A stretch of 20,644 nt of DNA, from IMG/VR virus record IMGVR_UViG_3300020470_000496, positions 1 through 20,644 of that record; one strand, 5' to 3'. The notes under the pieces are model-generated. The model was given only the letters and a program-made list of their open reading frames with translations, made no database searches and was not told where the DNA came from. This DNA is from a virus. A program made the translations under genes and the position numbers. Below, piece by piece: positions 358 to 16,700 of the stretch. Each line of letters opens with the position of its first letter. Within the stretch, counting starts at the first letter, position 1.

Positions 358-903
358 CTATTTAGATAATGACAACTTCCAAGCAACAGTAATTCTTAAT
401 CCTTGAAAATGTCGTGTAGTTGATTCTGCATAGTGAGGCATGTTTGCTGGAAACAACACTCCTGTATTTGGTTTAGGTAAGTTGTATACACACTTATCTT
501 TACCATAGAAGAATACTGTTTTTCCACCCCACTCAGGTTTCCATTTATGTACCTTATCAAATACTAGGTTTGAATATAACAAGAATGTATAGTCATCATC
601 TTCTTTACTATCTTGATGTATAGATCCTTGAGTACCAAATATATGACCATTAGCATATACTTCTTTAACTGTATATTCTTTTCCTGCTGTTGAACATATA
701 ATTTCTAACAAATGCTTTGAATAAAATTCATCAGTTTCTAATCTAGGCATATAGAAGAATGGTGTGGATGGAGATTCAGGATTGGATATATTTCCATATG
801 CCCAAGCAGGTTTTCTCATCGCATCATTAATTTTGAGGAAGTCTTCTTTGGTGAAAACTTCCTCAAATGTTCTTACCATATCTGGACTGAACGTTGTCCT
901 CAT
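358..903 (-). CDS. 2OG-Fe(II) oxygenase, prolyl-hydroxylase-like
   Basis: The 181-residue product has the jelly-roll (double-stranded beta-helix) pattern of 2-oxoglutarate/Fe(II)-dependent dioxygenases. Visible ligands are H96-Q-D98 (GSIHQD), a distal histidine at H157 (FPANMPHYAE) and R170 thirteen residues later (GLRITVAW), which would bind the 2OG carboxylate. WGGKTVFFY (about 125-133) is the strand that in prolyl hydroxylases reads GG-L-F. The expected chemistry is hydroxylation or oxidative change of a protein or nucleic-acid substrate using 2OG and O2. It is the last gene of a four-gene minus-strand operon; its start overlaps the stop of the previous gene by 4 nt, which suggests translational coupling. 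It converges on the tRNA. The fold and active-site call is strong; the substrate is unknown. Confidence 0.85.
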   Translation of the reverse strand: MRTTFSPDMVRTFEEVFTKEDFLKINDAMRKPAWAYGNISNPESPSTPFFYMPRLETDEFYSKHLLEIICSTAGKEYTVKEVYANGHIFGTQGSIHQDSKEDDDYTFLLYSNLVFDKVHKWKPEWGGKTVFFYGKDKCVYNLPKPNTGVLFPANMPHYAESTTRHFQGLRITVAWKLSLSK

Positions 904-1715
904 TCTATAACTGAAACTATTGAATATCGTATCTTGGTTTCTTTTTCTGCGTCAAAATTTACACTATGCCATTTCTTACCCCAGTACATATAACAGGAAT
1001 TAAAGTCTGCTGGTAATGAGAGATACTTTTCATAGTAATCATCACCATCAAACTTCACCCAAGGTTCTAGACCAGTGGGAGCAAATCCTTTATCACAATA
1101 TCCATATCTTTCTTTGAGGTTTTCGATGTGACGTTTTCTGGTATCTGGGTTACTATAGATTTCATTAGCACCATAGTAATACTTACCATTAACTCTATCT
1201 CTGACTCTAAAGAAAGCAGTAGCAGTTGTTGGTGAATCTGTTAAAAATGAATTTGCTGCTAAGGAGAATGGATCAACATGAGGTAGATAATTTCTATTAA
1301 ATGCAGTCATGCCTGGATAATAAATGTTAGTAAAGTATTTCCAAGTTACATGTTCTTTGTTAAATTTAATAAAGTTTAATCTCCTCGCAATGAAATACAG
1401 TTGATTACCTATAGCAGGAATCAACTGTCTTTCAAGGGGTTGTTGCATACCAGGTGATTTACTACTCTTACCGAATGATTCACCTTCACCTTCAAGTAGA
1501 CTTCTATTCTTATCTTCAGTAGGAAACTTCATAACAAACTCTCTCAGTTCGAGAGGGTTTTTAAAAACATTTCCTATTCTTAGATACCTAGTTCCCTCAC
1601 ATTCTGTATTGAGAATCTCTAAATCATTTAACGGATTAAATTCACATAATTCAAGTAGTTCATTATATGTGTACGCAGAGAAATCACTTAACTTGATATC
1701 GGGAAGGTTCATCAT
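900..1715 (-). CDS. 2OG-Fe(II) oxygenase-like protein with HxD...H...R set
   Basis: This 271-residue protein carries YLPHVDPF (H146-x-D148), then FF strands where related proteins have GTAFY, a distal H250 in KKWHSVNFD, and R263 thirteen residues after it in RYSIVSVI. These are the iron and 2OG ligands of the 2OG-Fe(II) dioxygenase superfamily. The layout (PHxD, then W-H-S near the C-terminus) is closest to the DUF6445-type oxygenase-like proteins. About 120 residues precede the catalytic core and may serve substrate recognition. The start overlaps the preceding stop in an ATGA; a second Met directly follows, so the start could shift by one codon. Its neighbours are also oxygenase-fold genes. 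Activity is likely from the residues; the substrate cannot be read from the sequence. Confidence 0.75.
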   Translation of the reverse strand: MMNLPDIKLSDFSAYTYNELLELCEFNPLNDLEILNTECEGTRYLRIGNVFKNPLELREFVMKFPTEDKNRSLLEGEGESFGKSSKSPGMQQPLERQLIPAIGNQLYFIARRLNFIKFNKEHVTWKYFTNIYYPGMTAFNRNYLPHVDPFSLAANSFLTDSPTTATAFFRVRDRVNGKYYYGANEIYSNPDTRKRHIENLKERYGYCDKGFAPTGLEPWVKFDGDDYYEKYLSLPADFNSCYMYWGKKWHSVNFDAEKETKIRYSIVSVIE

Positions 1716-2590
1716 ACATATAGCGGATCTTCATCAACTGGATTTTCAAATTCATTTCCTTCATTTTCTTTTGGCTTAGGAGGATTGTTAATACTACATG
1801 TTAGAGTATGGAAATCTCCTTCGTTATTGTAATCATATGTGTGCCATTTAGATCCTTTAAATAGGACAAGTCTATTTGCTTTGGCTTCTACAAATCTAGA
1901 CTTCAGAAATGATTCATTGCCTGTGAAGTTTTCGTATTTAACAATCTCTTCTTCGATCATAGTTTTGTTCAAACCTTCTCCAATCTCTTTTTGAAGGTTC
2001 TCATCATTGATCTCCATTAGATCTTGTAAGTCTGAATAATGTTCACCAGCATGAACATAATCATAGAAAGAAATACCATGATTGGGGTTACCATCTCTAA
2101 AGAGAACAGCGTTGTAATCAAATCTTCCTGGTGCTGGCATGTTTGCATTCTTATTGCAGAACATATCAGGAGTGACTAATTCTGCATATGTTAGAGAGTA
2201 TGTTGGTAGTTCAAATGCAAACGAAGGATTCTCTAGATTTACATCCAAGTCATGTGGAATAAATTCACATTCAATGAATAATTTATAACAATCAAATAGA
2301 ATACCTCTTAGGTAATGAGTACTAATTAATTGCTTAACTCCTGGCCAAGTAGGTTCATTAGTTCCTTTACCTTCTTTTTGTGCTGCTTCAATAACTTTTG
2401 CTTCATATCCTGCTGGACATAGATCTATAGCATTCCAGAAATCATCTGGTTTTTGTAAGAAATTATCAACAACAGCATAGTCACCAAAGTCATCTACTTC
2501 TGTATCATCAGATCCAGATGCACTAATGGTATCCCAGTTAATTTCTTTGATAACATCACGCCGACCACGGCTTAGTGTAAAATCACTCAT
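1712..2590 (-). CDS. Oxygenase-fold protein, probably degenerate 2OG family member
   Basis: The product has 292 residues from the start chosen here. It resembles its downstream neighbour in length and layout: a long N-terminal part, a core with AVLFRDGNPNHGISFYDY (about 161-178), then SKWHTYDY with H250 near the C-terminus. Where the neighbour has PHVD, this protein reads GRFD, so the first iron-binding histidine appears to be lost, and no arginine sits 13 residues after H250. It may be a non-catalytic partner or bind iron differently. The start at 2590 is preferred over 2611 because the strong Shine-Dalgarno AAGGAGG lies 11 nt upstream of it and overlaps the earlier ATG. It then overlaps the previous gene by 8 nt. 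The tail after about residue 270 is acidic and Pro/Glu/Asn-rich, likely disordered. Family membership is inferred. Confidence 0.6.
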   Translation of the reverse strand: MSDFTLSRGRRDVIKEINWDTISASGSDDTEVDDFGDYAVVDNFLQKPDDFWNAIDLCPAGYEAKVIEAAQKEGKGTNEPTWPGVKQLISTHYLRGILFDCYKLFIECEFIPHDLDVNLENPSFAFELPTYSLTYAELVTPDMFCNKNANMPAPGRFDYNAVLFRDGNPNHGISFYDYVHAGEHYSDLQDLMEINDENLQKEIGEGLNKTMIEEEIVKYENFTGNESFLKSRFVEAKANRLVLFKGSKWHTYDYNNEGDFHTLTCSINNPPKPKENEGNEFENPVDEDPLYV

Positions 2591-3074
2591 CTGCAATAGA
2601 TCCTCCTTCATTGGATTGCTGTGCTTCTAGTTCCATTTGAGCAGCAGCTAGTTCTGCTTCTGTTTTAACTTCTTTTCCTTTTAGTCCAGTGTCTTCTTCT
2701 CTAACACTAACGATAGTTTTCATGGTATCAACATTTACTTCGTTACCATCAACTGATTCCTTTTTAGCTAGAGTATCGAAATACATTTGCGTAACAGATT
2801 CTTGAGGTGTGTAGATAACCCTCACAAAATCTTTTACAAAATCAAATTCCCTATCTTGTGCTAGAGGAGCCCAGAAATCAAAATCGATTCTAGCACGTTG
2901 TGCTTGTACCTCTCCTTCTGGAGCAGCTGTATCTATGGTTTCATAGACTGTCTTTACAATATATGGATCTGTTACACGGTATCCAAGAGATTCATTTTTC
3001 TCTTTGTCTAGGACTTCGCTAATATCTCCAATTACTGTTTCGCCTGTTTCCAGGACAAGGACTTGTATACTCAT
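2583..3074 (-). CDS. Unidentified protein with possible Sm-like N-terminal barrel; first gene of the oxygenase operon
   Basis: The product has 163 residues. The N-terminal half, with VLVLETGETVIGDISEV (residues 5-21) followed by LGYRVTDPYIV, has the strand-turn-strand look of Sm/LSm-like small barrels (hydrophobic strand, NGE/TGE turn, then a bent strand). This is a fold impression, not a firm family hit. The C-terminal 50 residues are charged, Glu/Lys/Gln-rich and end in a Gly-Ser-acidic tail, probably helical or disordered. The gene starts about 73 nt from a minus-strand late-promoter motif (3154-3160) and leads the oxygenase operon. No catalytic motif is visible. If Sm-like, it could bind RNA or act as a ring adaptor; that is inference only. 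Confidence 0.7.
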   Translation of the reverse strand: MSIQVLVLETGETVIGDISEVLDKEKNESLGYRVTDPYIVKTVYETIDTAAPEGEVQAQRARIDFDFWAPLAQDREFDFVKDFVRVIYTPQESVTQMYFDTLAKKESVDGNEVNVDTMKTIVSVREEDTGLKGKEVKTEAELAAAQMELEAQQSNEGGSIADE

Positions 3075-3132
3075 TTCAATACTCTCTTATACATTTAGAA
3101 TTATACCGTACAACGGGTATTCCGTCAACTGA

Positions 3133-3139
3133 CTAAATA
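3133..3139 (+). promoter_or_regulatory. T4-type late promoter (CTAAATA) for the neck-gene side
   Basis: CTAAATA sits about 39 nt upstream of the ATG at 3172. By T4 late-promoter geometry the start point would be near 3146, giving a leader of about 26 nt. The same transcript would read into gp13. Confidence 0.6.
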
Positions 3140-3153
3140 TGTTATACTGTAGA

Positions 3154-3160
3154 TATTTAG
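3154..3160 (-). promoter_or_regulatory. T4-type late promoter (CTAAATA) for the minus-strand oxygenase operon
   Basis: Read on the minus strand this is CTAAATA followed by T, the late-promoter motif of T4-like marine phages (T4 itself: TATAAATA). It faces the gene starting at 3074, which would have a leader of about 70 nt. It is the right arm of a 9-bp inverted repeat whose left arm is the plus-strand promoter. Confidence 0.6.
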
Positions 3161-3171
3161 TATAGCATAAA

Positions 3172-3612
3172 ATGACTGAGCGTATACATGAGGGTACGGG
3201 TCTCCCAATCGTACCAATAGACGAGGAAGCAAGACATAGATCAATGGCCACGCTTGATGCAGACGAAGGTTTGTATGAAGTTAAGGACAGAGAAGCATAT
3301 GGAACTGGTATTGCTGACTTACCATTGTATGAGATAGTAAAAGAGATCGAAGAAAAATGGGATCCTCAAAAGTATCACATGGTTATTGATGCTGTTCTAC
3401 TTGCTGAAGATGAGTATGAAGCAGAGGGTTTGTCTAGAATTTCTGATAACCAGTTACTTACAGACAATATTCCAGAAGGTCAGAATGGTGGTATCGGATG
3501 GTACTGTGAATTTGGTGGTACGGAGAAGAATCCAGAACAGGTTAGATTCTTCAATACTATTGCAGCAGCAAAGAATTGGTTCTTAAACGAAGTAAAACCA
3601 TATAACACATAA
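3172..3612 (+). CDS. Hypothetical late protein upstream of gp13
   Basis: This 146-residue acidic protein is not recognised. The N-terminal 45 residues are polar and probably flexible (THEGTG-like, many Asp/Glu/Arg). The middle (about 50-85) looks helical, with IVKEIEEKWD and MVIDAVLLAEDEYEAEG. The C-terminal part holds GGIGWYCEFGG (about 107-117) and a helix with AAAKNWFLNEV. A single Cys is visible and no catalytic or metal motif. The ATG at 3172 has no clear Shine-Dalgarno but follows a late-promoter motif at a suitable distance. Its stop overlaps another late-promoter motif that precedes gp13, so it travels with the neck genes. A virion or assembly role is suggested by position only. Confidence 0.75.
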   Translation: MTERIHEGTGLPIVPIDEEARHRSMATLDADEGLYEVKDREAYGTGIADLPLYEIVKEIEEKWDPQKYHMVIDAVLLAEDEYEAEGLSRISDNQLLTDNIPEGQNGGIGWYCEFGGTEKNPEQVRFFNTIAAAKNWFLNEVKPYNT

Positions 3613-3615
3613 ATA
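3609..3615 (+). promoter_or_regulatory. Late promoter motif (ATAAATA) before gp13
   Basis: ATAAATA overlaps the TAA of the preceding gene. The predicted start, about 13 nt downstream (near 3622), gives a leader of about 20 nt for gp13. This transcript would begin inside the inverted repeat at 3611-3639. Confidence 0.5.
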
Positions 3616-3639
3616 CCATTTAGGAAACTATCGGTATTT
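3611..3639 (+). repeat. 7-bp inverted repeat in the gp13 leader
   Basis: AAATACC (3611-3617) pairs with GGTATTT (3633-3639) across a 15-nt loop that contains AGGAA (3622-3626), the only Shine-Dalgarno-like bases before gp13. The repeat ends two bases before the ATG at 3642. A hairpin could form on read-through RNA only, since the local late promoter would start inside it. Confidence 0.45.
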
Positions 3640-3641
3640 TC

Positions 3642-4478
3642 ATGGCTGCTCCTAGCACGAAGGCTGAGTTTAAAGATTACTGTTTGAGGCAGTTAGGTGC
3701 TCCAGTCTTAGAAATCAATGTAGATGATGATCAAATTGATGATCGGATCGATGATGCTTTACAGTATTTTCGTGAGAGACATTATGATGGATCCGAAAGG
3801 ATGTATTTGAAACACCAGTTTACAGATGATGATGTAACTAGGTTCCAGACAGAGAATGAAGTACAACAGACTACTGCACCTGATGCAGCAGCGTGGGAGA
3901 ATAGAAAGAATTTTTTAGAGATACCAGAACATATCTTTGGTATCTCAAAGGTTTATGGTATCAGTTCAAACTTTGTTCGTAACAGTTTGTTTGGACTAAA
4001 CAACCAGTATTATTTGATGGACTTGTTCTCATACACTTCGGGAACAGGTCTTGCTTTTGGTGGGGTTGACTTGGTTAACTACTACATGGTTAAGCAACAC
4101 TTTGAAACTATTGATATGATTATCAATACAGGTGCTTTGGTAGAGTTTAGATTTAATACAAGAGCAGATAGACTGTATATTGATATTGATGTAAACAGAG
4201 TTACTAAGGATCAATTCCTTCTTATAGATTGTCACAGGGCATTAGATCCAGCATCATACTCGCAAGTTTGGGATGACTTCTTCCTTAAGAAGTATGCTAC
4301 TGCACTTATTAAAAAACAATGGGGTGCTAACTTAATTAAGTTCCAAGGAGTAACACTTCCTGGTGGAGTTAGTATGAATGGTAGGCAGTTATTTGATGAT
4401 GCTCAAAAAGAAATAGATGAACTCATGGATAAGTCTATGAGTACATTTGAGTTACCACCTATGGATATGATAGGATGA
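3642..4478 (+). CDS. 13: Neck protein gp13
   Basis: The 278-residue product matches the T4 gp13 family: an N-terminal KAEFKDYCLRQLGAP segment, then DDDQIDDRIDDALQYFRERHYDGSE (stated here as residues about 27-51), a pattern typical of myovirus neck/head-completion proteins. In T4, gp13 and gp14 form the collar below the portal after packaging and make the platform to which the tail joins. Size is a little below T4 gp13 (about 309). The gene is followed with a 4-nt overlap (ATGA) by gp14, its functional partner. The start has poor Shine-Dalgarno context and lies just after a small inverted repeat. Confidence 0.93.
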   Translation: MAAPSTKAEFKDYCLRQLGAPVLEINVDDDQIDDRIDDALQYFRERHYDGSERMYLKHQFTDDDVTRFQTENEVQQTTAPDAAAWENRKNFLEIPEHIFGISKVYGISSNFVRNSLFGLNNQYYLMDLFSYTSGTGLAFGGVDLVNYYMVKQHFETIDMIINTGALVEFRFNTRADRLYIDIDVNRVTKDQFLLIDCHRALDPASYSQVWDDFFLKKYATALIKKQWGANLIKFQGVTLPGGVSMNGRQLFDDAQKEIDELMDKSMSTFELPPMDMIG

Positions 4479-7109: not shown

Positions 7110-7249
7110 TGGAATCTAAACTAGAAGTTCTCATAGGTTCTGAGTGGAAAGAGATTGCTAGAGGACCAAGTAAAGATATACATGTGACTGCGGCTATGTT
7201 AGACTTACCAATAATAGGGGCAACTGATTCGAGAATTATTGATTTATGA
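7109..7249 (+). CDS. Small hypothetical protein, 46 residues
   Basis: This short frame starts at an ATG whose A is the last base of the gp16 TAA, and its TGA overlaps the next ATG (ATGA at 7246-7249). It fills the 136-nt gap between gp16 and the oxygenase gene exactly. The upstream GGAGG in the gp16 end (ATGGAGGTAAGAGATAATG) is well placed as a ribosome site. The peptide starts MESKLEVLIGSEWKEIARGP and ends in DSRIIDL; it has no Cys, signal or membrane segment. The double overlap and good ribosome site support a real gene. Function unknown. Confidence 0.65.
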   Translation: MESKLEVLIGSEWKEIARGPSKDIHVTAAMLDLPIIGATDSRIIDL

Positions 7250-7794
7250 GTGCAATAACTATGAGTACAGTGGACAAGAAAGTCCCTGTCTTTTCAACAT
7301 TCCTTCCAGATTATGAAACCCTCAACCCAAAACTAATAACTTTAATCAAACAATATAGAGAGAAGTATCCTGAAAGAGAGGAGCATACGAATCTTAGGGC
7401 TTGGAGAAGTTCCTATGAGACTCATCTTCAGGAAGATAGGTTTGATTTTATAATTCAAAAAGGTTGTGATGCTGCTAAGTGTATAGCAAAAGAGTATTGG
7501 TTAGCACCTGATGTGCATTACTTACCATCTGCTTTTTGGATGTGTATGTATGAGAAAGGAGAGTATGCTAGACAACACCATCATTACCCATCAGATGTAT
7601 CAATAGTATATTACGTTGATGTTAAGGATGATTCTGCTCCTATAGTATTTGAAGATTCATTAACTATTCAACCTAAGAATGGAATGATGTTGATCTTTCC
7701 TGCATGGCTTCAACATAGAGTATTAGAAACAGAATCAGAGAGAATTGTTATAGCGATGAACTTAGTTAAAAAACTAGATATAATAGCGTTTTAA
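7246..7794 (+). CDS. 2OG-Fe(II) oxygenase of the putative-hydroxylase (2OG-FeII_Oxy_5-like) type
   Basis: The 182-residue product carries WMCMYEKGEYARQHHHYP, SIVYYVDV, then GMMLIFPAWLQHRV and ERIVIAMNL. This matches the small phage/bacterial 2OG-Fe(II) oxygenases that read G-x4-H-H-P, S-G-V-Y-Y-V, FP-W-x-H-V and R-I-S-x-x-N. Iron ligands are probably within H111-H113 plus H157, with R166 for 2OG. Chemistry would be hydroxylation of an unknown substrate. Marine T4-like phages often carry such a gene between the terminase genes. The start at 7246 overlaps the previous stop (ATGA); an in-frame Met six codons in (7261) is an alternative. Fold call good, substrate unknown. Confidence 0.85.
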   Translation: MSAITMSTVDKKVPVFSTFLPDYETLNPKLITLIKQYREKYPEREEHTNLRAWRSSYETHLQEDRFDFIIQKGCDAAKCIAKEYWLAPDVHYLPSAFWMCMYEKGEYARQHHHYPSDVSIVYYVDVKDDSAPIVFEDSLTIQPKNGMMLIFPAWLQHRVLETESERIVIAMNLVKKLDIIAF

Positions 7795-9168: not shown

Positions 9169-9376
9169 TGCAGTATGTCGTAAATGTGATGCTAGATGGT
9201 TTGAAGGTCAACTCTACTGGTCTACTGGTAAACTAGGAGATCCTCATGATCTTGCAGGGTTAGTATGTAATGAATATGGTGATGATAGATGTATAAATCC
9301 CTGTAAAGGTTCTACAAGCGGTCAGACTTGGGAACAACGTAGAGAATTTATTGATAACTTTACAGATGAATTATGA
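9152..9376 (+). CDS. Small Cys-rich protein, probable zinc binder
   Basis: The 74-residue product contains C9-R-K-C12, then C39, C47 and C51, the last in a C-x3-C arrangement. A C-x2-C plus later cysteines suggests a small zinc-binding module. RKCDARWFEGQLYW and GDPHDLAGLVCNEYGDD make a compact globular core likely. The gene begins 17 nt inside the nuclease gene and ends with an ATGA overlap to the following oxygenase gene, so it is translated as part of the chain. No family assignment. Confidence 0.7.
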   Translation: MEHLTNAVCRKCDARWFEGQLYWSTGKLGDPHDLAGLVCNEYGDDRCINPCKGSTSGQTWEQRREFIDNFTDEL

Positions 9377-9939
9377 GTATTGAAGTATATGATGATGTTC
9401 TAAGTGAAAAGGACTTCCTTACCTTACAGAATGTTGTTATGAAAAACAGAGGTAAGAGCAGGTTTGCTTGGGATTGGTCTGATGATGTTATCAATCCTGA
9501 GGATACTATGTGTGATGAGTTAGATCATTATCAATTATCACATACATTTTTCTTTCTTGGTCCACCAAGAAATAATCCTAATTTAAAACCTAAAGCATAT
9601 CAGAGTCCTCATATTGGTTTAGTAAAACCTATTCTAAGATTTCCACAATTAAAATTTGATGCACCTGTAAGGATTAAAGCAAATTTAAATGTAAGAACTG
9701 AAAAGGTAGTAAGACATGGATTTCATATTGATAATCCAATGCCAAATGGTATGACTGCAATATTCTATGTAAATACTTGTAACGGTTATACAGAGTTTGA
9801 AGAATCTGGACAGAAGGTTCATAGTAAAGAAAATAGGTTATGTGTATTCCCAACACCAACTAGACATAGTGGAACTACTTGTACTGATTGGAAGAGAAGA
9901 GTAGTAATTAATATAAATTATCTTCCTGCTACTAAATAA
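9373..9939 (+). CDS. 2OG-Fe(II) oxygenase, prolyl-4-hydroxylase-like
   Basis: The 188-residue product has GFHIDNPMPNGMTAIFYVN with H118-x-D120, the strand NGYTEFE, a distal H165 in PTRHSGTT, and R175 or R176 in WKRRVVININY. This is the standard HxD...H...R layout of prolyl-4-hydroxylase-like 2OG-Fe(II) oxygenases, and this form is a common one in marine T4-like phages. Substrate unknown; peptide or protein hydroxylation is the general expectation. It starts with a 4-nt overlap and ends 4 nt before gp17. It resembles the minus-strand gene at 358-903 in layout but is diverged in sequence. Confidence 0.9.
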   Translation: MSIEVYDDVLSEKDFLTLQNVVMKNRGKSRFAWDWSDDVINPEDTMCDELDHYQLSHTFFFLGPPRNNPNLKPKAYQSPHIGLVKPILRFPQLKFDAPVRIKANLNVRTEKVVRHGFHIDNPMPNGMTAIFYVNTCNGYTEFEESGQKVHSKENRLCVFPTPTRHSGTTCTDWKRRVVININYLPATK

Positions 9940-9943
9940 TTCC

Positions 9944-11593
9944 ATGGCTACTAATACTGACGTATATCTTGGTAACCCGAACCTGAAGAAGGCAGGTACT
10001 GAGATACAATTTACAAAGAAGCAAGTTAAGGAATGGATCAAGTGTAAGGATGATCCATTATATTTTGCTATGAATTATATGCAGATCATCTCTTTGGATG
10101 AAGGTCTTGTACCTTTTAAGATGTATGATTTTCAGCAAAGTATCCTAAAAGATTTTCACGAAAATAGATTCAACATTGCGAAGCTTCCTAGACAGACTGG
10201 TAAGAGCACCACTGTGGTCGCCTATCTTCTTTATTATGCTATCTTTTACGATAGTGTTAACATTGGTATTCTTGCTAACAAGGCTTCTACCGCCAGGGAA
10301 CTACTGGGTAGGTTACAATTAGCATATGAGAATCTACCTAAGTGGTTACAACATGGTGTTTTAGTATGGAACAAAGGTAATGTCGAACTTGAAAATGGAT
10401 CAAAGATACTGGCTGCTTCTACGTCTGCAAGTGCTGTCCGAGGCATGTCGTTTAACATTCTCTTCCTCGACGAGTTCGCTTTCGTTCCAAACCATGTTGC
10501 GGAGCAATTCTTTGCATCTGTTTATCCTACTATTACTTCTGGTAAGTCAACGAAAGTAATTATCATCTCTACCCCTAATGGTATGAACCACTTCTATAAG
10601 ATGTGGGAGGATGCTAGGAATGGTAAGAATGGATATGTTACGAATGAAGTACATTGGTCTCAAGTTCCAGGCAGAGATGCTAAATGGAAAGAGGAGACTA
10701 TGAAGAACACGTCCAAGAGACAGTTCGCTCAAGAGTTTGAGTGTGACTTTCTTGGATCAGCAGATACTCTTATTTCTCCAGCAAAACTACAAGCTATACC
10801 GTTCACTGAACCCCTTCAAAGCAATGCAGGACTTGATGTTTATGAGAGATCTAAAAAAGGTCACGAATATATTATTACTGTGGATGTTGCCAGAGGAATT
10901 GGTGGTGACTACAGTGCTTTCATCGTGTTTGATGTCACCACTCTCCCGTACAAAATTGTTGCCAAATACCGTGATAATGAGATTAAGCCTGTACTGTTTC
11001 CATCGGTTATACTTCAAGTAGCAAAGGAATATCATCTACCATATATTTTAGTTGAGGTAAACGACATTGGAGACTCTATCGCTGCTACTCTTAATTATGA
11101 TCTTGAATATCCTAACGTCCTTATGTGTGCTATGCGTGGACGAGCTGGACAGATCGTTGGACAAGGATTCTCAGGAAACAAAACACAACTAGGTGTAAAG
11201 ATGAGCATCACTGTTAAGAAGCAGGGGTGTGCAAACCTTAAAGCAATTATAGAAGAAGACAAATTAACATTCCAAGATTTTCACGTCTTGCAAGAACTTA
11301 CTACCTTCATCCAGAAGAAGCAAGCATGGGAAGCAGATGAAGGATATCATGATGATCTTGTAATGTGTATGGTTCTCTTTGCATGGTTAGTCATGCAGGA
11401 ATACTTTAAGGAAATGACTGATCAAGATGTTCGTCGTAGGATATATGAGGAACAGAAGAATCAGATAGAACAGGATATGGCTCCATTCGGTTTTATAGAT
11501 GATGGACTTGGAGATGATTCATTTGTAGAGGACGGATCCCTTTGGGAATATGGAGAGACACAAGAAGAAGTCTCCTATATGTGGAACTACTAG
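9944..11593 (+). CDS. 17: Large terminase subunit gp17 (packaging ATPase and nuclease)
   Basis: The 549-residue product is the DNA-packaging motor. The ATPase has Walker A RQTGKST (83-89) and Walker B ILFLDEF (172-178, with catalytic E177), followed by the coupling motif IISTPNG (about 207-213). The C-terminal RNase H-like nuclease has VDVARG (D314), VEVNDIGD (E371) and GYHDDLV (D470/D471), matching the acidic triad of T4 gp17. It docks on gp20, pumps DNA and cuts the concatemer at headful. Length is somewhat below T4 gp17 (610). The start has no Shine-Dalgarno, and a CTAAATA just upstream is too close to be its promoter. In T4 gp16 lies directly upstream; here an accessory insert separates them. 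Confidence 0.97.
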   Translation: MATNTDVYLGNPNLKKAGTEIQFTKKQVKEWIKCKDDPLYFAMNYMQIISLDEGLVPFKMYDFQQSILKDFHENRFNIAKLPRQTGKSTTVVAYLLYYAIFYDSVNIGILANKASTARELLGRLQLAYENLPKWLQHGVLVWNKGNVELENGSKILAASTSASAVRGMSFNILFLDEFAFVPNHVAEQFFASVYPTITSGKSTKVIIISTPNGMNHFYKMWEDARNGKNGYVTNEVHWSQVPGRDAKWKEETMKNTSKRQFAQEFECDFLGSADTLISPAKLQAIPFTEPLQSNAGLDVYERSKKGHEYIITVDVARGIGGDYSAFIVFDVTTLPYKIVAKYRDNEIKPVLFPSVILQVAKEYHLPYILVEVNDIGDSIAATLNYDLEYPNVLMCAMRGRAGQIVGQGFSGNKTQLGVKMSITVKKQGCANLKAIIEEDKLTFQDFHVLQELTTFIQKKQAWEADEGYHDDLVMCMVLFAWLVMQEYFKEMTDQDVRRRIYEEQKNQIEQDMAPFGFIDDGLGDDSFVEDGSLWEYGETQEEVSYMWNY

Positions 11594-11823
11594 TGGATCT
11601 TGAGCAGCAATTTGATTTAGAACATCTGCTCTTCAAGCAGAGGAAGTGTAGAACCTGTGGAAGAACTAAAGATTTATTGAATGATTTCTATCTTACTCGT
11701 AAGAATAGAAGTAGATTAGCATCAGCATATTCTTATGAATGTAAGATATGCACTATAGAAAGAGTTGTAAAAAATAGAAAAGATAATAAGGGTATTCCTG
11801 AGTGGTCATACCCTGATTGGTAA
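11593..11823 (+). CDS. Small C4 zinc-ribbon-like protein
   Basis: From a GTG at 11593 that overlaps the gp17 TAG, the product has 76 residues. An ATG at 11542 in the same frame would add 17 residues and overlap gp17 by 52 nt. The sequence KCRTCG (C19-x2-C22), a basic middle (FYLTRKNRSR), then ECKIC (C50-x2-C53) forms a C4 zinc site like that at the start of HNH/endonuclease VII-type proteins. No HNH catalytic histidines follow, and the tail is basic then ends PEWSYPDW. It may be a cut-down endonuclease or a stand-alone nucleic-acid-binding ribbon. Confidence 0.65.
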   Translation: MDLEQQFDLEHLLFKQRKCRTCGRTKDLLNDFYLTRKNRSRLASAYSYECKICTIERVVKNRKDNKGIPEWSYPDW

Positions 11824-11862
11824 TGTTCACGTTTTGTTTCCCCACTTGAAAGACGTTAATTT

Positions 11863-11869
11863 CTAAATA
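11863..11869 (+). promoter_or_regulatory. Late promoter (CTAAATA) for the sheath gene
   Basis: CTAAATA lies in the 89-nt intergenic space before gp18. The implied leader is about 37 nt and includes a good ribosome site, CGGGAG, 9-10 nt before the ATG at 11913. This is the clearest non-coding promoter context in the window. Confidence 0.7.
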
Positions 11870-11912
11870 AGTATAGACAATTTATCGATCATTTTATCGG
11901 GAGAAACGAAAC

Positions 11913-14351
11913 ATGGCAAGTCAAATCTCGCCTGGTGTTGTCATTAAGGAAAGAGATCTTACAACTGGTACAGTTGTTAACTCTGCTGCTACAAACGCAG
12001 CAGTTGTTTCAACATTCCAGAAAGGTCCAGTTAATGAAATCACCACGATAGCTTCTCAAAGAGAATTAGTAGACACATTTGGTAGTCCTGGTGACTCGAA
12101 TGCAGATGACTTTTTTGTAGCATCTGAATTCTTGAACTATGGAGGTCGCCTTGCTGTGGTACGTGCAGAAACTGGTGCGGTCAACGCTGGTGCTGCTGCT
12201 ATCATCCGTAACAAAGTTGACTATGAATCAAGGATTGAAGCAACTACTCCAGCATGGAAGTGGGCTGCTCAAACACCAGGTATCTGGGGCAACGGTTATG
12301 ATGTTGTTATCGCAGACCGTGGTGCTGACCAGTATGTAACGTTTGCTTCAGCACCTGCTGGAATGGCTGCTGGTACAGACTTAGCATTCAGTTCAGGTAA
12401 AGCAGGAGAAGTTCTTTCTTACGATGCTGCAACCTATACTGCTGCTGTTATCTTAAATGATCCGACAAGTAGAATTACTTCAAGCGATACCCTTGATACT
12501 CCCGACGAGGGTCGTGTAACAGGACTTACAGTTAGTGCTGGTGGTGTTAACTACACATCAGGTACTGGACTAGTAACCACAGGTGGTGCTGGTACTGGTG
12601 CTAAGGTAGACATCACTGTATCTTCTGGTGCTCCTAACACTCTTACAATTACAGCAGGTGGTTCAACCTATGGTGCTACTGGAACTAACGTAGCAACATC
12701 TGGTGGTAATGGATCTAACCTGACTGTAGACTTCACTTCAACTGGTGGTGTTATTGATAGCGTAACTATTAATACTGCTGGTACTGGATACACAGTTGGA
12801 GATGTAGTAACAGTTACTGGTGGTGGTAACAACGCACAGTTGACCATCACTGCTGTAACAGGTGCAATCACTGCTGTTGCTGTTGCAACTGATGGTGCTG
12901 GTGAAGGATATGCTGTTGGTAACACATTAACAGTTGTTCAAACTGGTGCATCTTCAGGTACAGTTGACGTTGCTACAATTCAAGACTCAACAATCGCTGT
13001 TACGGTTGCCGACTGGTGGACTAATACAAACACAGATGGTAGTAAGTCATCTGCTGCTGATGGTAAGATTAAACTATCTGCTATTGGTCCCCGTCCTGGT
13101 ACTTCTGCCTTCGCTGCTAACCTTGGTCTTTCATATGACGAGGTTCACGTTGGTGTTATTGATAGATCTGAAGGAACTGTTGTTGAAAGGATTCAATACC
13201 TTTCTAAGTTCACAGATGGTACTTCGACAGAAGGTGCTACTGCATACTACCCAACTATCGTGAAGGAAGTATCTAATTACGTTTACTTCGGTTCACACGT
13301 AACTGCTGCACACAATCCTTCTACTGCTGGTGCTGGTCTTGCTGCTGGAACTGCTGCTTCTGCTGCAAGTTCTGGAGACAAATGCCAACTCTTCGGTACT
13401 GTACAAACAGTTCTTGCTGGTGGTACTGATGATTACGCATACACACCAGCTGAGTTCACAACTGGTATGGAACTCTTCAATGATACTGAGACAGTTGATG
13501 TTGACTTCATCCTTATGGGTGGTTCAATGTCTACTGAAGCAGACACTAAATTGAAGGCTGCTCAATGTATCACAACTGCTAACCTCAGAAAGGATGCTAT
13601 CGCATACATTTCTGCTCATAAAGGTAATCAGGTTTCTGGTACAACTGCACTCTCAAGGATAGATCAGAAAGATAATACAATTAACTTCTTCTCTGCCTTG
13701 AGTTCTACATCATTTGCTGTATTTGATAGTGGTTATAAGTATTTCTATGATCGCTTTAACGATAAGTACCGCTATGTTCCTTGCAACGGTGACGTTGCTG
13801 GTCTATGTGTCGCAACTTCTGCAACACTTGATGACTGGTTCTCACCTGCTGGATTATCACGTGGCGGTGTAAGAAATGCTATTAAACTAGCATACAACCC
13901 AACTTCATCCGATAGAGATGAACTTTATCAGAACAGAATCAATCCTATTGTTTCTTTCCCTGGTCAAGGCATCACTCTATTCGGTGATAAGACTGCACTA
14001 TCTTCTCCATCTGCATTCGATAGAATTAACGTTCGTCGTCTGTTCATTAACATTGAGGAGAGAGCTGAAGCACTTGCTAAGGCAGTCATCTTTGAGCAAA
14101 ATGATGAGACTACAAGACTTGGATTCACAAATGCACTCGGATCTTACCTCTCTGAGGTACAGGCACGTAGAGGTATTACAGACTTCCAGATTGTATGTGA
14201 TGATTCAAACAATACCGCTAGTGTAATTGATCGTAACGAATTTGTTGCTGAAGTTTATGTTAAACCAACACGTTCGATTAACTTCATCACCCTTTCGTTC
14301 GTCGCTACACGCACTGGAGTTGCTTTCAGTGAAGTCGTAGGTCGTTCTTAA
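11913..14351 (+). CDS. 18: Tail sheath protein gp18 with a four-repeat insert
   Basis: The 812-residue product begins SQISPGVVIKERDLT, the typical sheath N-terminus, and ends in the family core with VRRLFINIEERAEALAKAV, FTNALGSYLSEVQARRGI and FVAEVYVKPTRSINFITLSFV. It forms the contractile sheath around the gp19 tube. T4 gp18 has 659 residues. Much of the excess is residues about 200-356, four Gly/Ser/Thr-rich repeats of about 39 residues with the pattern (V/T)I-x-x-(A/T)GG-x-x-Y-x-x-G. These fall where sheath proteins carry surface-exposed extra domains, so they probably decorate the outside of the tail. The same repeat style appears in gp14. Confidence 0.95.
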   Translation: MASQISPGVVIKERDLTTGTVVNSAATNAAVVSTFQKGPVNEITTIASQRELVDTFGSPGDSNADDFFVASEFLNYGGRLAVVRAETGAVNAGAAAIIRNKVDYESRIEATTPAWKWAAQTPGIWGNGYDVVIADRGADQYVTFASAPAGMAAGTDLAFSSGKAGEVLSYDAATYTAAVILNDPTSRITSSDTLDTPDEGRVTGLTVSAGGVNYTSGTGLVTTGGAGTGAKVDITVSSGAPNTLTITAGGSTYGATGTNVATSGGNGSNLTVDFTSTGGVIDSVTINTAGTGYTVGDVVTVTGGGNNAQLTITAVTGAITAVAVATDGAGEGYAVGNTLTVVQTGASSGTVDVATIQDSTIAVTVADWWTNTNTDGSKSSAADGKIKLSAIGPRPGTSAFAANLGLSYDEVHVGVIDRSEGTVVERIQYLSKFTDGTSTEGATAYYPTIVKEVSNYVYFGSHVTAAHNPSTAGAGLAAGTAASAASSGDKCQLFGTVQTVLAGGTDDYAYTPAEFTTGMELFNDTETVDVDFILMGGSMSTEADTKLKAAQCITTANLRKDAIAYISAHKGNQVSGTTALSRIDQKDNTINFFSALSSTSFAVFDSGYKYFYDRFNDKYRYVPCNGDVAGLCVATSATLDDWFSPAGLSRGGVRNAIKLAYNPTSSDRDELYQNRINPIVSFPGQGITLFGDKTALSSPSAFDRINVRRLFINIEERAEALAKAVIFEQNDETTRLGFTNALGSYLSEVQARRGITDFQIVCDDSNNTASVIDRNEFVAEVYVKPTRSINFITLSFVATRTGVAFSEVVGRS
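12510..12980 (+). repeat. Four-unit protein repeat insert in gp18
   Basis: Units start at about residues 202, 242, 281 and 319 and read LTVSAGGVNYTSG, LTITAGGSTYGATG, VTINTAGTGYTVGD and VAVATDGAGEGYAVGN. Each is followed by a beta strand ending in L/V-T/D-I/F/V-T. The repeats are diverged at DNA level but share the GG/AG-x-x-Y-x-x-G turn. Confidence 0.75.
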
Positions 14352-14386
14352 TCCATAACCACAAACTCGTAGGAAGGTAAACTAAA

Positions 14387-14989
14387 ATGGCTATTAACTC
14401 AAACGTATCTGAGTTTTTGCAAAAGATCAAGCAGGGTGTCAAACCCAATATGTTCTTGGTCGATATCGAGTTCCCTGGATCACTTGCTAAGGGAGCATCT
14501 GATAAAGAACTCGTTAATGTACTTTGCAAATCCGCAGCTCTACCAGCATCAAACTTAGGTGTAATTGAAGTTCCATTCAGAGGACGTACAGTAAAAATTG
14601 CTGGAGATCGTACCTTTGATACATGGACAACCACATTTGTAAATGACGAAGATATGAGGATTCGATCATTTATGGAACAGTGGTGTGCTGCAATCAATTC
14701 ACATGAAGGAAATGTATCCCCTCTATTCAAACCAGAAACTGCTGGTGATGGATACATGGCCCATCTAACAGTTAAGCAACTTGAAAAAGATGCAACTGCT
14801 ACTGGAAACATAATCAGGTCATACAAACTATGGCATGCATTCCCAACTAACGTCTCACAAATTGATCTTGCTTATGATAGCAATGATCAGGTTTCTGAGT
14901 TCACAGTTGAATTCCAGTTATCCTATTGGACTGCTGAAACAGGAGCAGCCGCATCAACCAATCCACCTAGCGTTTTGGCTGGCGTATAA
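14387..14989 (+). CDS. 19: Tail tube protein gp19
   Basis: The 200-residue product matches myovirus tail tube proteins: an N-terminal helix (VSEFLQKIKQGVKPNMFLVDIEFP in outline), PFRGRTVKIAGDRTF, the strand DTWTTTFVNDEDMRIRSFMEQW, and a C-terminal FTVEFQLSYW strand. T4 gp19 has 163 residues; the C-terminus here has an extra Ala/Ser/Pro-rich tail of about 15 residues. It polymerises into the inner tube inside the gp18 sheath, through which DNA passes. AGGAAGG lies about 10 nt before the ATG. There is no recognisable late promoter in the short gp18-gp19 gap, so it is probably co-transcribed with gp18. Its stop lies inside the gp20 late promoter. Confidence 0.95.
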   Translation: MAINSNVSEFLQKIKQGVKPNMFLVDIEFPGSLAKGASDKELVNVLCKSAALPASNLGVIEVPFRGRTVKIAGDRTFDTWTTTFVNDEDMRIRSFMEQWCAAINSHEGNVSPLFKPETAGDGYMAHLTVKQLEKDATATGNIIRSYKLWHAFPTNVSQIDLAYDSNDQVSEFTVEFQLSYWTAETGAAASTNPPSVLAGV

Positions 14990-14992
14990 ATA
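14985..14992 (+). promoter_or_regulatory. Late promoter TATAAATA before gp20
   Basis: This is an exact match to the T4 late consensus, overlapping the gp19 stop. The implied start is near 14998, with a leader of about 23 nt to the ATG at 15021. Confidence 0.7.
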
Positions 14993-15020
14993 AAAGGGTA
15001 ACTGGTGAGAAAACAATAAT

Positions 15021-16700
15021 ATGAGTCAGCTTTTCGGCTTCCAGATTAATAAAAAGGCGGAACGGAAGGGTCAGTCCCCCGTTCCTCCTAATGCTGAAGA
15101 CGGCGTTGCCGTAGCAGCAGGTGGTTATTTTGGCACTTATGTTGAGACTGACGCACAAGCGAGAAATGAATATGATCTCATCAAAAGGTATAGAGACATG
15201 TCTCTACACCCAGAATGTGATTCTGCTATTGATGATATTATCAACGAGTTTGTGGTTAATGACTCAAACGATAGTTGCGTAGATATAAATCTCGATAACC
15301 TAGAAGTAGGTATGTCGGTAAAGAGAAGAATAAGGGAGGAGTTTGATTATATCAAGCGACTCCTTTCTTTTGATTTAAAGGCACACGAGTTAATCCGTAA
15401 CTGGTATATTGATGGACGGATTTATTATCATAAGGTAATAGATCTGAATGAACCGAAGAAAGGTATTACTGAACTTCGGTACATCGACCCTCTTAAGATT
15501 AGAAGGGTAAGGCAGAAGATCAAAACTGTAGATGATCCAACAGTAGTTAAGGGAACTGCACTCGAACATGAGTGGGGTGACTATGTTGACTATTATATCT
15601 TTAATCCTAAAGGTTTTGGAAGACAATCTGCATTAGTTGGACCTGGAGATTTCACAGGCAACCAAGGAATTAAGTTAGCATACGATTCAGTAACCTTTGT
15701 CCATTCTGGACTACAGGATATGAATAAGAGAATGCATCTTAGTTTCTTGCATAAAGGAATTAAGTCACTCAATCAACTTAGAATGATTGAGGATGCACTA
15801 GTAATCTATCGTTTATCACGTGCTCCCGAACGTAGGATATTCTACATCGATGTAGGTAACCTACCTAAGGTGAAGGCAGAACAATACTTACGTGATGTGA
15901 TGTCTCGCTATAGGAACAAACTTGTCTACGACGCACAGACAGGTGAGATCCGTGATGATAAAAAGCATATGAGTATGCTAGAAGATTTCTGGTTACCTCG
16001 TAGAGAAGGTGGTCGTGGAACTGAAATTACTACCTTACCTGGAGGACAAAACCTTGGTGAACTTAAAGATGTTGAATACTTTAAGAAGAAGCTTTATAAC
16101 TCGCTTAACCTTCCACCTAGTCGTCTTACAGACGATAACAAAGGTTTCAATCTCGGTAAGACTACGGAAGTACTTAGAGATGAACTCAAATTTAGTAAGT
16201 TCATTGGAAGACTACGTAAGAGATTTAGTTTCATCTTCCAAGATGTCCTTAAGACTCAACTTATTCTCAAAGGAGTAATTGCTCCTGAAGATTGGGATGA
16301 GATGCAAGAGCATATTCAATATGATTACTTGCATGATAATCATTTCAATGAGCTTAAGGAAATTGAAATGATGACCCAACGGATTGCTCTGGTAACACAG
16401 ATGGATCCTTATGTTGGTAAATACTATTCAGTCGATTATATACGTCGTGATATTCTTGGTCACACTAACAATGAGATCAGGGAGCAAGACAAGTTGATGC
16501 GTAAGGAGATCGATCAAGGTCTTGTTATGAGTCCAGTCGATATGAATACCTTCGATATGATGGATCGTCAAAACGATGCATTTGCTCCAGAAATTGAAGC
16601 ACAGAATGCAGAAGATGATCATACAAGGGAGTTAGAAGCTGCGAAGCAACAGGCAAAATTAAAGCCAGCTCCTGCTAAAACCACTAGTAGTAATAAATAG
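15021..16700 (+). CDS. 20: Portal protein gp20
   Basis: The 559-residue product has the gp20 landmarks: the conserved LIKRYRDMSLHPECDSAIDDIINEFV block (about 54-79), VRQKIKTV, SGLQDMN, LHKGIKSLNQLRMIEDALVIYRLSRAPERRIFYIDVGNLPK in outline (about 246-286) and LPGGQNLGELKDVEYFKKKLY. T4 gp20 has 524 residues. Twelve copies form the portal ring through which gp17 packages DNA and to which the neck attaches; it also nucleates prohead assembly. The C-terminal 35 residues are Lys/Ala/Pro-rich and probably flexible. The segment LSRAPERRIFYIDVGN is the part commonly used in gp20 diversity surveys. The gene has its own late promoter and ends at a further late-promoter motif. Confidence 0.97.
   Translation: MSQLFGFQINKKAERKGQSPVPPNAEDGVAVAAGGYFGTYVETDAQARNEYDLIKRYRDMSLHPECDSAIDDIINEFVVNDSNDSCVDINLDNLEVGMSVKRRIREEFDYIKRLLSFDLKAHELIRNWYIDGRIYYHKVIDLNEPKKGITELRYIDPLKIRRVRQKIKTVDDPTVVKGTALEHEWGDYVDYYIFNPKGFGRQSALVGPGDFTGNQGIKLAYDSVTFVHSGLQDMNKRMHLSFLHKGIKSLNQLRMIEDALVIYRLSRAPERRIFYIDVGNLPKVKAEQYLRDVMSRYRNKLVYDAQTGEIRDDKKHMSMLEDFWLPRREGGRGTEITTLPGGQNLGELKDVEYFKKKLYNSLNLPPSRLTDDNKGFNLGKTTEVLRDELKFSKFIGRLRKRFSFIFQDVLKTQLILKGVIAPEDWDEMQEHIQYDYLHDNHFNELKEIEMMTQRIALVTQMDPYVGKYYSVDYIRRDILGHTNNEIREQDKLMRKEIDQGLVMSPVDMNTFDMMDRQNDAFAPEIEAQNAEDDHTRELEAAKQQAKLKPAPAKTTSSNK
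16692..16699 (+). promoter_or_regulatory. Late promoter motif AATAAATA before the prohead core gene
   Basis: AATAAATA overlaps the gp20 stop. A start about 13 nt downstream leaves only about 7 nt before the ATG at 16712, so the RNA may serve gp21 (16896) more than the small core gene. Confidence 0.45.

Follow-up and report, generated by a model that had tools for sequence, protein, structure and literature searches.

A minus-strand operon of four overlapping genes, here called D, C, B and A in gene order, is conserved beside the neck protein gene gp13 in a T4-like marine phage and its relatives. It extends the known clusters of 2-oxoglutarate (2OG) oxygenase genes in cyanophages, and what is new is the combination of two predicted intact oxygenases (A and B) with a maintained pseudo-oxygenase (C), and the presence of two promoter types. 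We tentatively propose, at somewhat less than an even chance, that the four genes encode a protein-hydroxylase unit of the phage in which B would be active, C its partner and A accessory, with a structural protein from the same locus as the likeliest substrate.

The DNA analysed (the window) is the whole IMG/VR record IMGVR_UViG_3300020470_000496, complete at 20,644 bases, from a T4-like marine phage. Its plus-strand virion block starts at 3642 and contains gp13, gp14, gp15, gp16, gp17, gp18, gp19, gp20, gp21, gp22 and gp23, named from matches to annotated cyanophage loci and the standard T4 order. Two extra 2OG-Fe(II) oxygenase genes (7246–7794 and 9373–9939; phrog_81 and phrog_274) are located in this block, after gp16 and before gp17. 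The portal protein shares 73–76% identity with those in Synechococcus phages, and a probable psbA was also found on two loci sharing the tRNA-linked gene of the window, suggesting that the host is likely a cyanobacterium. The operon runs from 3074 down to 358, with ORFs of 163 (D), 299 (C), 271 (B) and 181 (A) amino acids. The features of this region are as follows.

358–903, minus strand: A, predicted 2OG-Fe(II) oxygenase of the phrog_274 family, 181 aa (profiles and motif)
900–1715, minus strand: B, predicted DUF6445/phrog_1644 oxygenase with intact motif, 271 aa (profiles and motif)
1712–2590 (ORF to 2611), minus strand: C, predicted catalytically dead paralogue of B, about 292 aa from a conserved Met (hhalign, motif loss)
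2583–3074, minus strand: D, operon leader, phrog_431, 163 aa (profiles, first operon position)
3100–3128, minus strand: sigma70-like promoter TTGACG-17-TATAAT, matching the consensus at 11 of 12 positions, 26 nt upstream of D
3133–3139, plus strand: divergent late-type motif toward E and gp13, in 10 of 11 relatives aligned
3154–3160, minus strand: late-type motif CTAAATA into the operon, 86 nt upstream of D, in 11 of 11 relatives aligned
3172–3612, plus strand: E, 146 aa, between the operon and gp13, conserved, no known family
3642–4478, plus strand: gp13 neck protein, conserved neighbour of the operon

B and A overlap by 4 nt (900–903) and C and B by 4 nt (1712–1715). The overlap between D and C is 8 nt if the start of C is placed at the conserved Met (2590) and not at 2611. 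These ORF positions and overlaps of 4–8 nt bear out the preliminary description of a tightly coupled four-gene minus-strand operon by the plus-strand virion block.

IMG/VR was searched with B and C, both singly and as profiles. The operon, whole or partial, was retrieved on about 18 other contigs (about 19 with the window), and this conservation of its genes in other phages excludes chance ORFs. The order gp13, E, antisense D-C-B and then A was observed in every contig found that extends far enough, and D is the first gene in all operons found. The most divergent phage (L026 and L027), whose gp13 is only 47–50% identical to that of the window, carries D-C-B without A, indicating that D-C-B forms the operon core and that A is accessory. 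Identity to the window is 32–67% for B and C and mostly 79–95% for gp13; the operon thus evolves faster than its neighbour and has nevertheless been retained. Conservation across phages, suggested as a check in the preliminary description, was confirmed by the antisense D-C-B beside gp13 on about 19 contigs. The proposal made there of a pathway or complex is reasonable, because a conserved operon of 2OG-fold genes has been kept together in these contigs. No relatives of B were found in GTDB genome contigs, and tblastn at 1e-5 revealed no B or C homologues in isolated phages. At E ≤ 1, tblastn with divergent B tied the B family to phrog_1644 of isolates. This family was undetected in six related records (two of about 180 kb), where the control also gave no signal.

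B is a catalytic-looking oxygenase and is predicted to be active. It matches phrog_1644 (2.9e-17) and DUF6445 (PF20043; 5.7e-5), where its 23.6 bits are just under the gathering score of 24; the orthologues in L026 and L035 score 30.2 and 28.1 bits, over that value. Residues H146-x-D148, H250 and R263 make up the HxD...H triad and C-terminal Arg of 2OG oxygenases and are invariant in all relatives. The same residues are invariant in eight aligned phrog_1644 proteins of isolates (Syn9, S-SSM7, P-HM1 and ACG-2014j). These isolate genes are homologues of B, often lie near fibre or other 2OG genes, and encode proteins that share about 22–25% identity with B where tblastn covered most of the protein. 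No literature on DUF6445 was found. A is likewise assigned by profile and motif as a catalytic-looking 2OG-Fe(II) oxygenase. Its residues H96-Q97-D98, H157 and R170, again the triad and the C-terminal Arg, are invariant across six sequences. It matches phrog_274 (1.6e-27), a profile with no cut-off, and exceeds neither of the curated cut-offs, scoring 24.4 bits (5.7e-5) against 27 for Pfam 2OG-FeII_Oxy_3 and 48.1 bits (1.3e-12), far under 240, for the NCBIfam FlmC-family 2OG profile. A profile search of A against solved structures gave no significant match.

C is homologous to B (hhalign 96.1%, E 3e-9) and matches DUF6445/phrog_1644 weakly, and no close homologue was found in the isolates searched. 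The HxD and Arg are absent from C in all relatives aligned, the HxD segment being RFD, NFD or unrelated residues, and the distal His survives in just two of the aligned sequences, that of the window and that of its closest relative. In five of six comparisons, C has a dN/dS of 0.17–0.32, comparable to that of B or somewhat higher; the sixth value, 0.57, comes from the most divergent, saturated pair. Motif loss under purifying selection suggests that C is a retained pseudo-oxygenase, and selection on a dead protein indicates that it probably serves in binding or regulation. Of the three 2OG oxygenases in the preliminary description, A and B thus keep HxD...H...R, whereas the residues of C that would bind metal and 2OG are missing in all relatives. 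Three enzymes acting in stepwise hydroxylation, as suggested there, are therefore unlikely, and one active enzyme with a catalytically silent partner is the better fit.

Structure prediction, which the preliminary description named as a check of the oxygenase fold, was run for B and C. Both models are of low confidence (B: pLDDT 59, pTM 0.60; C: pLDDT 62, pTM 0.66), with alignments of only ten sequences each. The Foldseek neighbours of the C model are mostly prolyl hydroxylases (P. putida P4H, P3H1, OGFOD1, PHD2), with P4H as the best match (E 1.4e-3, probability 0.99). Those of the B model are mostly 2OG oxygenases, the best at E 0.03 and none significant. Neither model gave a match at E 0.001, and the Foldseek results back the 2OG-oxygenase (double-stranded beta-helix, or jelly-roll) fold of B and C only weakly and point to no particular substrate. 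In these weak, low-confidence comparisons, the C model and partly the B model come closest to protein prolyl hydroxylases (bacterial P4H, P3H1, OGFOD1, Tpa1). C differs from these enzymes in lacking the catalytic residues, and a profile search of B against solved structures gave no significant match.

The leader gene D was described earlier as possibly Sm-like. A search of Pfam, PHROGs and NCBIfam profiles detected no LSM or Hfq match, leaving that label without profile support; D matches only phrog_431 (6e-21) and, weakly, DUF6561 and related phrogs. No significant match to solved structures was obtained in a profile search. Cyanophage phrog_431 proteins (T4-GC 176) constitute the family of D. 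P-HM1 carries two of them in tandem, which, unlike D, are located between hsp20 and gp43 in the replication gene block and not with oxygenases.

The motif [AC]TAAATA occurs in 13 copies in the window, of which nine are at most 90 nt upstream of the start of a gene on the same strand, compared with 1.1 expected under random placement, indicating that it is very probably the late promoter element of this phage. A divergent pair of these motifs is present in the D–E spacer in 11 of 12 phages, and the D-ward motif in 12 of 12 (window included). CTAAATA provides the TATAAATA-like motif upstream of the first gene that is typical of T4-type late control, at a distance from D that is unusually long for a late motif. 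The sigma70-like promoter lies between the late motif and D, and its form is conserved across relatives. From these two elements we infer that the operon is probably transcribed early from the sigma70-type promoter and later from the late promoter. The earlier term late-expressed is therefore partly appropriate: a conserved late motif does point into the operon, but a stronger sigma70-like promoter, also conserved, is nearer to D.

On the other side of the operon, a fibre-like virion gene adjoins in 12 of 12 relatives checked, in convergent orientation and with one small ORF between. It is about 1,900–2,000 aa where complete (in L021 it spans 9747–15818) and matches virion structural and tail fibre families; no collagen-like or 7-residue repeats and no repeated prolyl substrate motifs were found in its protein. 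The window differs from its relatives in having a synthetase-like gene and tRNA-Asn at the fibre position. Positions 25–350 contain the 3' end of a class II aminoacyl-tRNA synthetase-like gene, with tRNA-Asn(GTT) close behind. The gene is about 265 aa at full length in relatives, the size of the catalytic core only, and matches Pfam tRNA-synt_2, with weak NCBIfam Asp/Asn ligase matches. Among the best 80 IMG/VR loci, it occurs at varied genome positions, with tRNA-Asn downstream in 73 of 80. The synthetase–tRNA-Asn pair is apparently mobile. The synthetase-like segment reaches at most about 90% DNA identity among the matches listed, and thus no sign of a recent join (misassembly) was seen at the tRNA junction. 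A match to Reelin subrepeat B (3e-19) was obtained for a long ORF (L151, 1–6936) that lies upstream of the fibre-like gene in the divergent phage G003.

The slot between fibre genes and gp13 is occupied by DUF6445 and other 2OG genes in several other phages. In ACG-2014j, a DUF6445 gene and a 2OG gene are located there, and in S-SSM7 several 2OG genes together with sugar and halogenase genes. In G007, six consecutive 2OG-Fe(II) oxygenase-like genes lie between the tail fibre genes and gp13, all in the gp13 direction. In S-SSM7 and Sf-FS3, an antisense DUF6445 gene and a nucleotide-sugar epimerase gene are directly upstream of gp13; the DUF6445 gene is thus paired with an epimerase, whereas B in the window is paired with D and C. 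The positions are as follows.

L148 (G007:C1:31900-43000), 1089–4411: six-gene 2OG row of G007
L053, 16150–16848: antisense DUF6445 gene of S-SSM7, in the slot and orientation of the operon
L057, 8001–8708: antisense DUF6445 gene of Sf-FS3, in the slot and orientation of the operon

DUF6445 genes of other isolates are located after gp23 or between gp55 and gp47. In two records of about 180 kb, gp13 is immediately preceded by a long ORF, and no 2OG gene intervenes. The association of DUF6445/2OG genes with fibre genes is therefore suggestive, not exclusive.

In the proposed hydroxylase unit, B would act as a DUF6445-type Fe(II)/2-oxoglutarate oxygenase that hydroxylates a protein. C would be a non-catalytic partner that helps B to bind its substrate or acts on it allosterically, with A as an additional, accessory 2OG oxygenase and D as a small leader protein. 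The physical partnership of B and C and the protein nature of the substrate are what we infer from several observations: D-C-B is held together beside gp13, the A and B motifs are invariant, C is dead yet selected and homologous to B, protein prolyl hydroxylases predominate among the fold neighbours of C, and a fibre-like gene adjoins the operon. The adjacent fibre-like virion protein would be the leading substrate candidate. A substrate among the virion proteins agrees with the gene neighbourhood, given the fibre gene adjoining in all 12 relatives and the 2OG batteries elsewhere. The case for the fibre is weakened by the synthetase-like gene and tRNA-Asn that replace it in the window and by its lack of collagen-like or 7-residue repeats. 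The proposal as a whole is weakened by the occurrence of DUF6445 genes elsewhere in isolates, by the low-confidence models and by the lack of Foldseek matches at E 0.001. A more specific form, in which B and C make an obligate heterodimer whose dead DUF6445 subunit directs the active one to the fibre-like virion protein of the phage itself, as a dedicated hydroxylase maturing the adhesion structure, is doubtful.

Conservation of the early-type promoter suggests a function that precedes virion assembly, which counts against a virion substrate and favours the main rival explanation, that the operon targets a host protein early in infection, for example in the translation machinery, like ribosomal or EF-Tu prolyl hydroxylases. 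OGFOD1, Tpa1 and the EF-Tu-binding P4H are also among the Foldseek neighbours. These fold matches are weak and broad, however, and the operon sits at a fixed place among late virion genes and carries a conserved late motif; we regard a host target as rather unlikely. The same early-type promoter would suit a role in which the oxygenases consume 2-oxoglutarate and thereby alter host nitrogen signalling or provide succinate, a hypothesis published for cyanophage 2OG genes (PMC3037559). It leaves the dead paralogue, the leader gene and the virion-locus position unexplained and is highly improbable.

Modification of phage DNA or nucleotides appears just as improbable. DNA repair has been proposed for cyanophage 2OG proteins (PMC3037559) and phrog_274, the family of A, is labelled 'DNA endonuclease V', but this label spans proteins with 2OG motifs. 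The fold matches of C are mostly to protein prolyl hydroxylases, and packaged DNA, named as a possible substrate in the preliminary description, has found no support. The genes may instead be cargo, each independent of the others and without a common pathway, in a 2OG hot spot that lies between the fibre genes and gp13. The 2OG sets in this slot differ among phages, up to the six in a row of G007, and A is missing from L026 and L027. Against this, D-C-B keeps a constant order with mostly overlapping reading frames across large divergence, and dead C is kept beside B; independent cargo is accordingly an improbable explanation, less so than 2OG consumption or DNA modification. The protein-hydroxylase unit remains the reading we prefer.

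Clustered 2OG genes are known from other T4-like cyanophages, such as Syn9 (gp45–gp54) and S-SCSM1, which has 24 2OG-Fe(II) oxygenase genes (PMC9602691). Unlike these arrays, the window operon is a fixed minus-strand unit that opens with a leader gene, pairs an intact with a dead protein and has conserved promoters of its own. 2OG oxygenase genes are numerous in cyanophages; according to PMC9602691, their functions in viruses have not been investigated, and the ideas published for cyanophages concern DNA repair and 2OG metabolism (PMC3037559). The operon brings together a single enzyme family, a dead partner of its own, a constant neighbouring gene and conserved promoters, and offers a small testable unit for cyanophage 2OG function. 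If the fibre were the substrate, 2OG genes would be tied to host adhesion rather than to general metabolism. The PHROGs labels 'minor coat protein' for phrog_1644 and 'DNA endonuclease V' for phrog_274 appear misleading for proteins with 2OG-oxygenase motifs, since the aligned members of these families carry 2OG-oxygenase residues or 2OG Pfam matches.
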